Origin: an uncultured Candidatus Saccharibacteria bacterium
Lineage (GTDB): Bacteria > Patescibacteriota > Saccharimonadia > Saccharimonadales > UBA4665
Reading direction: 5' to 3'
NCBI GenBank assembly: GCA_903900685.1
Contig: CAIUOC010000044.1
Location: forward strand, 1 to 37,911
DNA: 37,911 bases
The translations under genes and the position numbers were made by a program. The notes below the pieces were generated by a model. The model did no database searches. It had not been told where the DNA came from and was given only the letters and a program-made list of their open reading frames with translations. Below are positions 2,764-30,071 of this stretch, one piece after another. The first letter of the stretch is position 1. Every line of letters starts with the position of its first letter.

Positions 2764-3102
2764 TTAGTTTTTCTCTTTCCATCCATCTATAGAATTCATT
2801 AGTAATGATGTAGGAAGATTATATTCCCCATCCCCTTCTCTATAAACAACACTTTTATTGTTCATAATTCTTAATGAACTAGCATTTTCAGCATCTTCTA
2901 TAATAATTCCATCCAGATTCAACTTAGGAAATAGAACGATTTTTATTTCCTCCTTAAGAATATCTAGTTGATCTAATTCATGATCTATAGAATTTAGTAT
3001 TATATTCTTAGCAATAGCTAGTGCTCTATCAAGATGTAACTTTTCGCTTACTATATTTATATGTTCATTAGGTTCTTGGTTTGAATTTATTGCCTCTGAC
3101 AT
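2764..3102 (-). CDS. Hypothetical 112-aa protein; candidate immunity protein for the upstream EndoU toxin
   Basis: ORF 11 bp downstream of the EndoU ORF, same strand; acidic, no recognised domain. Confidence 0.6.
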   Translation of the reverse strand: MSEAINSNQEPNEHINIVSEKLHLDRALAIAKNIILNSIDHELDQLDILKEEIKIVLFPKLNLDGIIIEDAENASSLRIMNNKSVVYREGDGEYNLPTSLLMNSIDGWKEKN

Positions 3103-3113
3103 AATTTAAATCC

Positions 3114-3737
3114 TTAAATTGGGAACGCAGTTAAAATGTTTCCACTACTGTTTGAAGTAATTACCTCTATATTAACACCATTAACCTGTGCCTTATGTAT
3201 AGACCTAGAATTATTTTCATCACCATTGTCGCTAATCGGTTCATTGGAAACAAGTAATATTGCCTCTAATACTTCTTGAGTTGACCATTCATCTGGAAAC
3301 ATATTAGAACCGCGGCGTTTTATAAATCTTTTATTTTTATTGCTCGAAATCACAATATCTCCTGCCCGATAAACTCCATTTTCATTCTTTTTTTGTGCAG
3401 CTTTATACTTCGAAACTTTTTTACTATTGGGTTTATTGCTTGCAATTGAGGATGCAACCTTTGTTTTGACATTGCCAACTTCTACTTGTGATGGTAAATG
3501 ATGAAGCCCTCCGCTTTCACTGCCAACAAGTATATGTTTAAGTGAGTCGTGACCGTTTTCTGGATTTAGTTCAAATTTTTTAAGGACCCCAGATTCATAA
3601 AACTCCGAGCTAATTAGACCTTTATCTACCATTTCAAGCTCGAATTGTTGTCTATTAAACTCAGAATCATTTATAGAGTCTGAATCATGCTCAGAATTAT
3701 AATGTTTATAGTTAAAGTTACTTATTTTTTCAGTCAT
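3114..3737 (-). CDS. EndoU-type bacterial ribonuclease toxin (CdiA-CT/EndoU superfamily)
   Basis: C-terminal about 140 aa match the bacterial EndoU pattern: KHILVG-SESGGLHH ... NGVYRAGDIVI ... KRFIKRRGSNMFPDEWSTQEVLEAI ... VNGVNIEVITSNSSGNILTAFPI. Confidence 0.8.
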   Translation of the reverse strand: MTEKISNFNYKHYNSEHDSDSINDSEFNRQQFELEMVDKGLISSEFYESGVLKKFELNPENGHDSLKHILVGSESGGLHHLPSQVEVGNVKTKVASSIASNKPNSKKVSKYKAAQKKNENGVYRAGDIVISSNKNKRFIKRRGSNMFPDEWSTQEVLEAILLVSNEPISDNGDENNSRSIHKAQVNGVNIEVITSNSSGNILTAFPI

Positions 3738-3930: not shown

Positions 3931-4653
3931 ATGTCAAAAAAATCTGAGAGTAGGAACATATACAAAAAGAATAGCGATGTCGCAGTAATAGTTCCTGTTT
4001 ATAATGAAGGTTCGATTATAAAAACTACAATTCTAGAACTTGAGCAGTGCTTTAATTACATAATCTGTGTCAATGATGGAAGCAAAGATAACACTTTATC
4101 AGAGCTTAGAAAAACTAATTGTATTATAGTGAATCATCGTCTAAATCTTGGTCAAGGTGCATCCATACAAAGTGGTATAGAATACGCACTTTTAAACAGT
4201 AATAAAAAATATTTTATTACATTTGATGGAGATGGCCAGCATGTCGTAGATGAAGCAGTCAGCATGCTAAAACACCTTCAAAATAATCGTCTAGATATCG
4301 TACTAGGTTCACGCTTTCTTCACAAAAAGACTAATGTGCCTTTTTATAAAACAATAATCTTAAAGATCGCCCTATTACTTTCCAATAAAGTAATAGGTTT
4401 AAAACTATCAGACACACATAACGGATTGAGAGTATTTAATAGGCATGTTGCAGAAACTATAAATTTAGAAGTCTCAGGAATGGCACATGCGACAGAAATT
4501 ATATATAAAATACGCGACAATGTTTACAATTATTCAGAATTTCCAACAACAATTAATTATACCGATTATTCGGTTAAAAAAGGTCAACCTATTATGAATT
4601 CTATAAATATTGTCTTTGATATCCTAATGAATAGGTTTAGTAGAAAAAAATGA
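3931..4653 (+). CDS. Family 2 glycosyltransferase (dolichyl/undecaprenyl-phosphate sugar synthase-like)
   Basis: VIVPVYNEGSIIKTTILELEQCFNYIICVNDGSKDNT ... FDGDGQH ... GSRFL. Confidence 0.9.
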   Translation: MSKKSESRNIYKKNSDVAVIVPVYNEGSIIKTTILELEQCFNYIICVNDGSKDNTLSELRKTNCIIVNHRLNLGQGASIQSGIEYALLNSNKKYFITFDGDGQHVVDEAVSMLKHLQNNRLDIVLGSRFLHKKTNVPFYKTIILKIALLLSNKVIGLKLSDTHNGLRVFNRHVAETINLEVSGMAHATEIIYKIRDNVYNYSEFPTTINYTDYSVKKGQPIMNSINIVFDILMNRFSRKK

Positions 4654-5027
4654 TAATTAAGATTCTATTATTATTTTTAGTCATATTAATTTTTTTATAC
4701 TTTATTTCAAAATCAGAAACATATAGAATTAAAGCCTGGAAAAAATTGCTAGCATTATTTTTTACATTTTTTGCCACGATTGCAATAATTACACCAAATA
4801 TAGTTAGTGATTTAGCTCGTTTTGTAAATGTTGGCCGGGGAACTGATTTATTGCTTTATATGCTGACTATATCTTTCATATTTGTAAGTGCTAATACATA
4901 TATAAATAATCAGAAAGTTGAAAATCAATTGACTAAAATAATCCGATTGCTAGCACTCTATGAAGCTCAAAATGACAGTCATAATAAAAAAATCAGCAAG
5001 AATATCAATCATAAATTTAACGACTAA
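4650..5027 (+). CDS. DUF2304-like small membrane protein
   Basis: Three hydrophobic segments with a typical GT2-partner DUF2304 layout; ATGA overlap with upstream GT2. Confidence 0.75.
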   Translation: MIIKILLLFLVILIFLYFISKSETYRIKAWKKLLALFFTFFATIAIITPNIVSDLARFVNVGRGTDLLLYMLTISFIFVSANTYINNQKVENQLTKIIRLLALYEAQNDSHNKKISKNINHKFND

Positions 5028-5385
5028 TTACAAAACTGAGCCCAATTAATACTAAAAATATTCCCATTACATTGATATAGCTTAATTTTTCATGAAAAAA
5101 TAGTACCGCCAAAAGTGTTGAGAAGATAATAGCAGTTGTAGTCATCGCTATTTGAACAACATAAAATTTATTGTCAGACAGCAGGAAAAAGTAAACAACA
5201 ATTGCAAAAACATATAATAATCCACCCATCCATATTAAAGGACTTGTTATAATATTCTGAATAATGCGCATATTTGTACCATGCATTATTCCATGATGCT
5301 TTACTGCAGTTCCCCATAATGCTTGAGCACCTACAAGCATTATGGCCATAAGTGGTAGAAGAAGATATCTCCCAATCTGTAACAT
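5017..5385 (-). CDS. SMR/EamA-like small 4-TM transporter (candidate lipid-linked sugar flippase)
   Basis: MLQIGRYLLLPLMAIMLVGAQALWGTAVKHHG...FFHEKLSYINVMGIFLVLIGLSFVISR; start chosen at ATG 5385 (track ORF extends to 5493 inside the divergent gene). Confidence 0.7.
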   Translation of the reverse strand: MLQIGRYLLLPLMAIMLVGAQALWGTAVKHHGIMHGTNMRIIQNIITSPLIWMGGLLYVFAIVVYFFLLSDNKFYVVQIAMTTTAIIFSTLLAVLFFHEKLSYINVMGIFLVLIGLSFVISR

Positions 5386-5403
5386 GGTACAATTGTAGCA
5401 TAT
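5386..5403. promoter_or_regulatory. 18-bp bidirectional promoter with palindromic shared -10
   Basis: CAT-ggTACAATTGTAgcatat-ATG; TACAAT on both strands, each preceded by TGn (extended -10). Confidence 0.65.
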
Positions 5404-6471
5404 ATGTCTAAAGTAATTTTGAGTAGTTCTAAAAAATGGGCAGAACCAAAAAATATAGGCATAATAGTAGTTGCATTTGACAACCAAGAACATTTAAAAA
5501 AGCTTCTGAAGACAATTGCTCTTCAGAAGCAAAAAAATGACTTTCTTATTGTAATTGATAATCACCCGGAATACCGTTCAGCAATACTTGCAGATAAATA
5601 CGATACGGTAGACAAAGTTATTCGATCTCCAAAAAACTATGGTTTTGCTAAAGGCTGTAATGTGGCAGTTAAGCGATTACCGTCTAATATCGATACCATC
5701 TTAATGCTCAATCCTGATACTATCTTAGAGAAAAATACTTTAAATTTTCTCCGTAAAGAGTTGCCTGCTGAATGGGCTGGTGGTATGCCCTTATTGACAA
5801 TGGCTAATCAAAAAGTGAATAGCGCTGGCAACGTACTTCATATTAGTGGGCTTTCATGGTGTCAAGGTTTCGGTAAGAATGTTAAAGAATATAATGTACA
5901 CAAAGAGGTAGTGATAATTTCTGGTGCTTGTTTCTTGATTCGCAGAAATGTATGGGAAGAATTTGGTGGATTTGAAGAAAATTATTTTATGTATTATGAG
6001 GATACGGATCTTTCGCTTCGTATAAGACTAAAAGGCTACAAAATAGGTTTAATACCGAATGCTCACGTAAAACACGATTATGATTTTCAGAAAAGCCATC
6101 TTAAATGGTTTTATATAGAAAGAAATCGATATTTAATTATATTCGAATTATTTCCATTGCCAGTTATTATTCTACTTTTTCCTCTACTTTTTATGGTTGA
6201 ATTAGGATTATGGGGTTTGGCTATTATAGATGGTAGATTTTTAAATAAACTCAAAGCTAGTTTCTCTGTAATTAAAGTTATCCCATTAATATTCAGAAAA
6301 AGACATTTGAATAAAAAAAACCTACGACTTTCTCCCTTGGAGTTTTTTAATTTATTAAATGGTTCTATTGATACGCCTATACTTAGTCGAATACAAATTC
6401 TTAATCCTTTATTTAACTTTTACTATGAGATTGTAGTTATACTACTTAGATTATTCTACCCAACAAAATAA
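5404..6471 (+). CDS. Family 2 glycosyltransferase (rhamnosyltransferase/WbbL-like) with C-terminal membrane segments
   Basis: IGIIVVAFDNQEHLKKLLKTI ... VIDNHPEY ... LMLNPDTILEKNTL ... ISGACFLIRRNVWEEFGGFEENYFMYYEDTDLSLRIRLKGYKIGLIPNAHVKHDY. Confidence 0.92.
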   Translation: MSKVILSSSKKWAEPKNIGIIVVAFDNQEHLKKLLKTIALQKQKNDFLIVIDNHPEYRSAILADKYDTVDKVIRSPKNYGFAKGCNVAVKRLPSNIDTILMLNPDTILEKNTLNFLRKELPAEWAGGMPLLTMANQKVNSAGNVLHISGLSWCQGFGKNVKEYNVHKEVVIISGACFLIRRNVWEEFGGFEENYFMYYEDTDLSLRIRLKGYKIGLIPNAHVKHDYDFQKSHLKWFYIERNRYLIIFELFPLPVIILLFPLLFMVELGLWGLAIIDGRFLNKLKASFSVIKVIPLIFRKRHLNKKNLRLSPLEFFNLLNGSIDTPILSRIQILNPLFNFYYEIVVILLRLFYPTK

Positions 6472-10199: not shown

Positions 10200-10296
10200 A
10201 TTTTTGTTTTATTTATACCTATTTACATTAGCATAATTTTACTGTTTTGTCGAGTTATATTTCCTTGCAACCTCTGTATCTGCTACAATCTAGTTT

Positions 10297-11379
10297 ATGT
10301 CAAAAAGTCTTGAGATAGGAATCGTCGGACTACCAAATGTTGGTAAGTCTACCCTGTTTAATATCCTAACCGATGGTAGCGCTTTAGCTGCTAATTACCC
10401 TTTTGCAACCATTGAGCCAAATACTGGAACAGTTGCTGTTCCCGATGAACGCTTACAAAAATTAGCGGAACTATATAAGACTAATAAGATTATTCCAGCA
10501 ATGATTACCTTTACAGATATAGCTGGACTTGTAGCTGGAGCTAGTAAGGGCGAAGGACTTGGCAACCAGTTCTTGGGGCATATTAGAGCAACTTCATTAA
10601 TAGTCCATGTAGTTAGAGCCTTTAGTGACTCTAACGTATTGCATGTAGATGCTGAGCCAAACCCTAAAAAGGATATTGAAACTATTAATACAGAACTTAT
10701 GCTTGCTGATCTTCAATCAATCGACAAAAGACTGTCCAAGCTCGAAAAAGAAGCCCGAGCCGATGGAACTCTAAAAGCTAAACTTGAACAAACCAAAAAA
10801 GCCAAGGAATATTTGGATCAAGGAATTATGCTTAACAGCCTAAAGACTGATAATTTTCCAGGCATAGATGATTTGAACTTATTATCTCTGAAGCCACAAA
10901 TATTTGTGTTCAATATTGATGACACCGATCTTAACAACGATTCAAAACAGACCGAGCTGAAAAAATTAGTACCTGGATATGAGGTTGTATTTATTAGTGC
11001 CAAGCTAGAAAATGAACTTAGAGAACTAGATAAATCTGATGCCATAGAATTACTTGAGAGTTATGGACAAACAGAAAATGGCCTATCAACCCTAATTAAA
11101 AGTGCATATAAGGCTCTTGGTCTTCAGAGCTATTTAACTGCCGGTGAAAAGGAAGTTAGAGCCTGGACAATACATTCAGGCTATACTGCACCACAAGCCG
11201 CTGGAGTGATTCATGGAGACTTTGAAAAGGGCTTTATTGCTGCTGAAGTAGTGGATTACAATTCACTAATCGATGCAGGATCAATACAAGCAGCTAAAGC
11301 GGTTGGTAAACTTAGAACTGAAGGAAAAACCTATATCATGCTACCTAATGATGTAGTTGAGTTTAGATTTAACGTTTAG
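10297..11379 (+). CDS. ychF: Redox-regulated ATPase/GTPase YchF (OLA1 family)
   Basis: GIVGLPNVGKSTLFNILT ... FTDIAGLVAGASKGEGLGNQFLGHIR ... C-terminal TGS domain. Confidence 0.97.
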   Translation: MSKSLEIGIVGLPNVGKSTLFNILTDGSALAANYPFATIEPNTGTVAVPDERLQKLAELYKTNKIIPAMITFTDIAGLVAGASKGEGLGNQFLGHIRATSLIVHVVRAFSDSNVLHVDAEPNPKKDIETINTELMLADLQSIDKRLSKLEKEARADGTLKAKLEQTKKAKEYLDQGIMLNSLKTDNFPGIDDLNLLSLKPQIFVFNIDDTDLNNDSKQTELKKLVPGYEVVFISAKLENELRELDKSDAIELLESYGQTENGLSTLIKSAYKALGLQSYLTAGEKEVRAWTIHSGYTAPQAAGVIHGDFEKGFIAAEVVDYNSLIDAGSIQAAKAVGKLRTEGKTYIMLPNDVVEFRFNV

Positions 11380-28930: not shown

Positions 28931-29799
28931 TTTGTTTTCCTCTGGCACTTTGGACATAAATGAGTCCCACGGGAAGCCACTCTAGTCTTTATAATAATAG
29001 TATTACACCTAGGGCACGGTTGTCCTTCTTTTCTAAAAACATTAGCGAATTCTAGATAGCTGCCTTTTTTCCCTTCTGCATCTACATAATTTTTATCTGT
29101 TGATCCGCCTAACGAAATGCTCTTTGTAAATACCTCTTTTATGGATTTGATTAGTAGATTTAATTTATTATCCGACAGTGTTCCGCTCAATGATGAAGGA
29201 TGAATTTTAGCTATCCAGAGGCTTTCATCGGCATATATATTACCGACTCCGGCCAGTACTGTTTGATCTAGTATTGTTGCTTTAATTGAACTATTTTTTC
29301 TCCGACGAACTCGAGATCTAAATTCGGTATTTTTAAAACTAGAACTTAGTGGTTCGGGTCCTAATTTTTTCATAAAATTTAAATTTGCTACTTCAATTTC
29401 AGGCAAAAGTCTCATCCATCCAAACTTACGTTGATCGTTGAAAAATAATTTAGAATCATCATCAAAAGTTAATATCACTCTTGTTGATCTATCTGGCAAT
29501 GGACCAACTAGTGAGTCATTTGGATGACCGGCACCAAATTGTTCCTTACCTCTAAAAACCAACTGTCCCGTCATTTTAAGATGAATCACCAGGCAATACT
29601 TGCTTGATAGATTCACAATCAGAGACTTCCCTCTTCGTTTGACAGTTAAAATTGAAGCACCTATAAGAAAATTATTAACGTCAGCTTGAGAGTTTGGAAA
29701 ACCTTTTGGCCAATCATAAACAACAGATTGAACTTTTTTATTCTTTAATAATCTGTTCAATCCGTTCTTTACAGTCTCTACCTCTGGAAGCTCTGGCAT
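28927..29799 (-). CDS. mutM: Formamidopyrimidine-DNA glycosylase
   Basis: MPELPEVETVKNGL ... AGVGNIYADESLW ... Zn finger CPRCNTIIIKTRVASRGTHLCPKCQ intact. Confidence 0.97.
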   Translation of the reverse strand: MPELPEVETVKNGLNRLLKNKKVQSVVYDWPKGFPNSQADVNNFLIGASILTVKRRGKSLIVNLSSKYCLVIHLKMTGQLVFRGKEQFGAGHPNDSLVGPLPDRSTRVILTFDDDSKLFFNDQRKFGWMRLLPEIEVANLNFMKKLGPEPLSSSFKNTEFRSRVRRRKNSSIKATILDQTVLAGVGNIYADESLWIAKIHPSSLSGTLSDNKLNLLIKSIKEVFTKSISLGGSTDKNYVDAEGKKGSYLEFANVFRKEGQPCPRCNTIIIKTRVASRGTHLCPKCQRKTK

Positions 29800-29831
29800 G
29801 GTTTAAATATTGTATCAGTTATAATAAAGTT

Positions 29832-30071
29832 ATGGACGATATTGCGAATATTTTGAGAAGATCAAATATAAAACAACCCGATGAAATTGAAAGAGTTAAA
29901 AACTATATTTATGAAAAATATACTAAATCGGTAAATGTTACTGTAAAACAAGAAGCTTTAGTAGTTTCCGCAAATAGTGCTTCACTGGTTAATGATTTAA
30001 GGCTTAATGCCAATAATATAATTGAAGCATGTGGCTTAGAAGATAAGAAAATTATATTTAAAATTAGTTAG
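29832..30071 (+). CDS. DciA/DUF721-like small protein
   Basis: MDDIANILRRSNIKQPDEIERVKNYIYEKYTKSVNVTVKQEALVVSANSASLVNDLRLNANNIIEACG; TATAAT 6 nt before ATG 29832 supports this start over 29694. Confidence 0.65.
   Translation: MDDIANILRRSNIKQPDEIERVKNYIYEKYTKSVNVTVKQEALVVSANSASLVNDLRLNANNIIEACGLEDKKIIFKIS

Follow-up and report, generated by a model that had tools for sequence, protein, structure and literature searches.

How can two genes be transcribed away from each other when 18 bp is all that separates their start codons? In the window—i.e., the whole 37,911-nt stretch of an uncultured Candidatus Saccharibacteria genome analysed here—this question is raised by a minus-strand gene for an EamA-like membrane protein and a plus-strand glycosyltransferase gene, whose divergent start codons, at 5385 and 5404, agree with the preliminary description of the locus and enclose ggTACAATTGTAgcatat. 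We propose that this gap is probably a bidirectional promoter of the sigma70 type with an extended -10 box in each direction, from which leaderless or near-leaderless mRNAs would be made both ways.

The gap and the two genes

Within the gap lies TACAATTGTA, a perfect palindrome found once in the window (chance expectation 0.08), which gives TACAAT on both strands, each copy preceded by the TGn of an extended -10 box as had been pointed out earlier (Table 1). The TG of the plus-strand box occupies 5385-5386 and that of the minus-strand box 5400-5399; with these flanking TG/CA letters included, the symmetry reaches 16 bp (TGGTACAATTGTAGCA). The two hexamers share 2 bp, i.e., the putative promoters overlap physically as proposed, and the spacers to ATG are indeed 10 nt (plus) and 6 nt (minus). 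Transcription starts are predicted at A5400 on the plus strand, 4 nt before the ATG (range 5400-5404), and at A5385 on the minus strand, the first base of the start codon; they are 15 bp apart, within the 7-25 bp criterion for bidirectional promoters. Specifically, T5385 of the plus TGn is at once the last letter of CAT, the opposite start codon as it reads on this strand, and the T of the minus TGn pairs with A5400, the predicted plus start. Both -35 regions fall inside the opposite coding region, again as expected from the first reading, and the best hexamers found there match a -35 element at 2/6 (plus) and 3/6 (minus) positions, neither resembling one. RNA structure at the 5' ends of the two transcripts gave no signal above shuffles.

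Table 1. Features of the divergent locus (window coordinates).
Feature	Coordinates	Strand	Basis or remark
Gene 1, 122-aa EamA/small-multidrug-resistance-like membrane protein, predicted leaderless	5017..5385	-	ORF, ATG at 5385
Start codon of gene 1 (CAT)	5383..5385	-	sequence
Extended -10 for glycosyltransferase, TGG-TACAAT	5385..5393	+	sequence, spacing statistics
Region between the two start codons	5386..5403		18 bp; sequence
Palindrome TACAATTGTA, comprising two -10 hexamers that share 2 bp	5388..5397		sequence
-10 hexamer, plus	5388..5393	+	sequence
-10 hexamer, minus	5392..5397	-	sequence
Extended -10 for EamA-like gene, TGC-TACAAT	5392..5400	-	sequence; spacer 6 = genome-wide mode
Start codon of gene 2 (ATG)	5404..5406	+	sequence
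Gene 2, 355-aa family-2 glycosyltransferase	5404..6471	+	Pfam Glyco_trans_2_3, E=7.7e-12

The minus-strand product matches Pfam EamA weakly (E=3.6e-4, below the curated cut-off) and has homologues in six relatives, the best at 29% identity (in genome G030). The nearest homologue of the glycosyltransferase shares 36% identity (in G015) and has a different divergent neighbour. The window's gene pair is not conserved in relatives. The possibility that the minus gene starts at 5493, raised at the outset as an alternative, is unlikely and was rejected: the additional 36 residues would be encoded antisense to the part of the GT2 gene that specifies its conserved N-terminus, and in the G030 homologue an in-frame stop lies only 9 codons upstream of the Met. 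Because this stop bars an N-terminal extension, 5385 is the likely start.

More glycosyltransferase and DUF2304 genes (Pfam) lie alongside, and the region looks like a surface-glycan cluster. Elsewhere in the window, the gene at 3114-3737 encodes a bacterial EndoU nuclease domain (PF14436, E=5e-16) of the kind familiar from secreted toxins. It adjoins a small ORF (2764-3102) with no Pfam match, which could, at a guess, be its immunity partner.

Leaderless extended -10 boxes in the genome

Spacing statistics covering 679 kb (69%) of the window's genome show that 35 genes have TGNTANNNT ending 6 nt ahead of their first ATG and that in 43 further genes this distance is 7-9 nt, with about 1-2 genes at each of the other positions; a whole-genome pattern scan returned 93 matches vs 23 for the reversed pattern. 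The aligned boxes are enriched for TG and have no -35 conservation, and Shine-Dalgarno motifs are present at the usual distance for other genes of the genome. This spacing pattern agrees with the TA-led leaderless signals of Zheng et al. (2011; PMC3160421), which the window site resembles in its TANNNT box, the first base of which lies about 12 bp ahead of the start codon, in the TG extension seen in low-GC genomes and in a dispensable -35. Given the genome-wide peak at 6 nt, leaderless expression from extended -10 boxes, with no -35, appears to be ordinary in this genome, which favours the two-way reading.

The minus spacer equals the genome-wide mode and thus has the genome-typical leaderless spacing. 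The earlier suggestion that both transcripts are leaderless or nearly so is strengthened by this peak for the minus gene and needs qualifying for the plus gene, whose spacer of 10 nt (three genes in the same 679 kb) lies off the 6-9 peak and for which a leader of about 4 nt is expected.

Under the bidirectional reading, RNA polymerase would engage the 16-bp symmetrical TGnTACAATTGTAnCA facing either way, a single enzyme at any moment and with no need of a -35 element. Leftward, the EamA-like mRNA would begin on the A of its AUG, i.e., it would be leaderless; rightward, the glycosyltransferase mRNA would begin about 4 nt before its AUG. In the resulting 15-bp register, each TGn would have its T facing the A at which transcription in the other direction begins, with the sharing between start codon and TGn exact on the minus side and the plus start codon 4 nt further on, hence the short leader. 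As leaderless genes are widespread in this genome, a ribosome-binding site would be unnecessary and such tight packing of two genes possible. The overlapping geometry of the two directions would also make occupancy exclusive, so that the mutually exclusive firing proposed in the preliminary description is upheld sterically, at a single moment. Strong mutual repression is not implied: at five E. coli bidirectional promoters basal firing is too weak for competition, which appears only on activation (PMC12825309).

Two further observations concern leaderless boxes in the window. A second divergent pair (29797-29834) has leaderless -10 boxes on both strands (CATGGTTTAAATATTGTATCAGTTATAATAAAGTTATG), with start codons 32 bp apart and no overlap between the boxes. 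In addition, a leaderless-type promoter, TGCTACAATCTAGTTTATG, is found at ychF (10281-11379), a gene whose own product reportedly promotes the translation of leaderless mRNAs (PMC12641178).

Recurrence of the layout in the order

The preliminary description overlooked a recurrent, conserved architecture across the order, of which the window site appears to be one case. The pattern CATNNTANAATTNTAN{2,6}ATG occurs in 64/295 genomes of the order and is rare in a reversed-pattern control, its matches concentrating in genus g91 of family f35, i.e., in another family than the window's (f1). Among 60 g91 genomes, the minimal form CATnnTAnnATnnTAnnATG / CATNNTANNATNNTANNATG, with start codons 14 bp apart, was counted 90 times vs 6 in the control and the E. 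coli-type 18-bp register was hardly enriched (63 vs 46)—though these counts, summed by hand, include orthologues and hence do not represent independent occurrences. ORFs of at least 80 aa flank about 47 sites on both sides; these sites form 22 gene-pair groups, the window's among them, and others include tdk/ung, lexA-like/LytR-type, mur-ligase/tsaE, dnaG and smpB pairs. The presence of core genes is confirmed by Pfam matches to thymidine kinase, uracil-DNA glycosylase, DnaG, SmpB, TsaE, Mur ligase, PP-loop (TilS-like) and the LexA DNA-binding domain. The third base of the motif varies freely in relatives, TATAATTATA being commonest. Within f1, the nine other matches that we read were mostly one-sided or chance, with no clear two-gene case, and the window site is nearly alone there.

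Conservation of the layout was examined in Ung and LexA-like orthologues collected by protein search, not by motif (seed proteins were taken from motif-bearing loci), the upstream DNA of which was then read. Where a divergent ORF starts within 24 bp, the TANAATTNTA core is present in 39/42 cases (ung 13/15, lexA-like 26/27); where there is no such neighbour, it is present in 1/18 (ung 1/15, lexA-like 0/3). The distance between start codons varies from 14 to 22 bp in these sets and the core is retained, and six conserved lexA-like loci have a plus spacer of 10, as in the window. As the core tracks the divergent neighbour, the palindrome appears to belong to the two-gene layout and not to either gene alone.

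We lean towards the view that the order has a distinct compact element, CAT-G-n-TANAATTNTA-n-C-ATG, in which two leaderless genes would stand back to back, with as little as 14 bp between them, on one bidirectional promoter of 15-bp register. Where the start codons are 14 bp apart, each of them (CAT on the other strand) would supply the T of the opposite TGn.

One of the recurrent pairs has an unusual member: in g91 (L243-L272), the LexA-type DNA-binding-domain protein is about 110 aa long, too short for the LexA peptidase domain, and across most species its gene is divergently paired with a LytR-CpsA-Psr-like gene of about 490 aa or more, the start codons being 16-22 bp apart.

Competing readings and the known bidirectional promoters

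Counting against the two-way reading are the off-peak plus spacer, the non-conserved gene pair and the fact that enrichment is strongest in another family. The box might drive the EamA-like gene only. The plus -10 would then be incidental, a result of AT-rich symmetry, and the glycosyltransferase would be expressed by transcripts reading through from the plus-strand genes upstream of the pair (3931-5027) and running antisense to the minus gene. That the minus spacer is the exact genomic mode and the plus spacer is not, that plus-strand genes do lie upstream, and that near-symmetry is inherent to -10 boxes (PMC10268837) all fit such a one-way promoter. However, the plus side has a TG extension too, and TGnTANAAT boxes on both sides, each 5-10 nt from its start codon, arise together in simulated 18-mers of the genome's intergenic composition with a probability of only ~2.5e-6 (an approximate value, from a handful of hits). 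Read-through would moreover have to traverse an opposing 369-bp gene and reach a plus ATG that lacks the preceding Shine-Dalgarno motif expected to be necessary on a read-through mRNA, and relatives conserve the use of the core by two genes, spacer 10 included. We consider a one-way promoter unlikely.

It is very improbable that the arrangement arose by chance in a short AT-rich gap, the two genes being driven from other sites or one ORF being no gene. While looser TANNWT matches at leaderless distance on both sides occur with a probability of 0.06 in the simulated 18-mers, such that bare hexamers alone are unconvincing, and while the EamA match is weak, the extended boxes on both strands make chance a poor explanation, both ORFs have homologues, and there is the genome-wide spacing signal. 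As a 10-mer, TACAATTGTA is no more frequent in this AT-rich genome than the Markov expectation, which its two copies in 0.68 Mb equal; it is the placement of the palindrome, not its frequency, that exceeds chance.

The consensus for CopY/BlaI operators is TACAnnTGTA, which TACAATTGTA fits. Least credible of all, nevertheless, is that the palindrome serves mainly as such a repressor operator and not as a double promoter, and we rejected this: the cognate repressor (Penicillinase_R, PF03965) has no match in the genome or in close relatives, where controls were detected, TACANNTGTA is not enriched (8 vs 12 for the reversed motif), and the third base varies freely in relatives, as a -10 box would allow.

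The preferred bidirectional reading has precedents, in that work on E. coli and Salmonella has established promoters with a shared symmetrical -10 (PMC12825309, PMC10268837). In the published class, divergent starts lie 7-25 bp apart, with 18 preferred and 10 and 23 also common, the 18-bp register being a preference and not a requirement (PMC10268837). Like those promoters (Warman/Grainger; Warman et al., 2021; PMC10268837, PMC12825309), the window site has overlapping -10 hexamers on opposite strands, would admit one polymerase at a time and lies, as they often do, between divergent genes. Unlike them, it has a predicted start distance of 15 bp instead of the preferred 18 (at which positions -7 and -11 coincide), it apparently relies on TGn on both sides with no -35, and both of its mRNAs are predicted to be leaderless or nearly so, hence start codons 14-18 bp apart. 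TA-led genes, on the other hand, were described as single genes (PMC3160421), whereas here two such promoters would be merged head to head. We thus regard the window site as a variant of the known bidirectional promoters, seemingly combined with leaderless expression; no description of the leaderless back-to-back form was found in the literature searched (most subscription papers were outside its reach).

The predictions that the layout yields for 5'-end mapping of cultivable relatives are clear, and the dozens of orthologous pairs with and without a divergent neighbour would constitute a natural test set for asking whether bidirectional promoters are under selection. If transcribed as predicted, these would be about the smallest promoter regions that two divergent protein genes can share, with promoter, start sites and start codons all within the same 20-24 bp. 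The compact element, if real, would allow housekeeping pairs to be expressed without additional regulatory DNA, its start codons and promoter letters being constrained together, and would explain how reduced genomes do without intergenic DNA.
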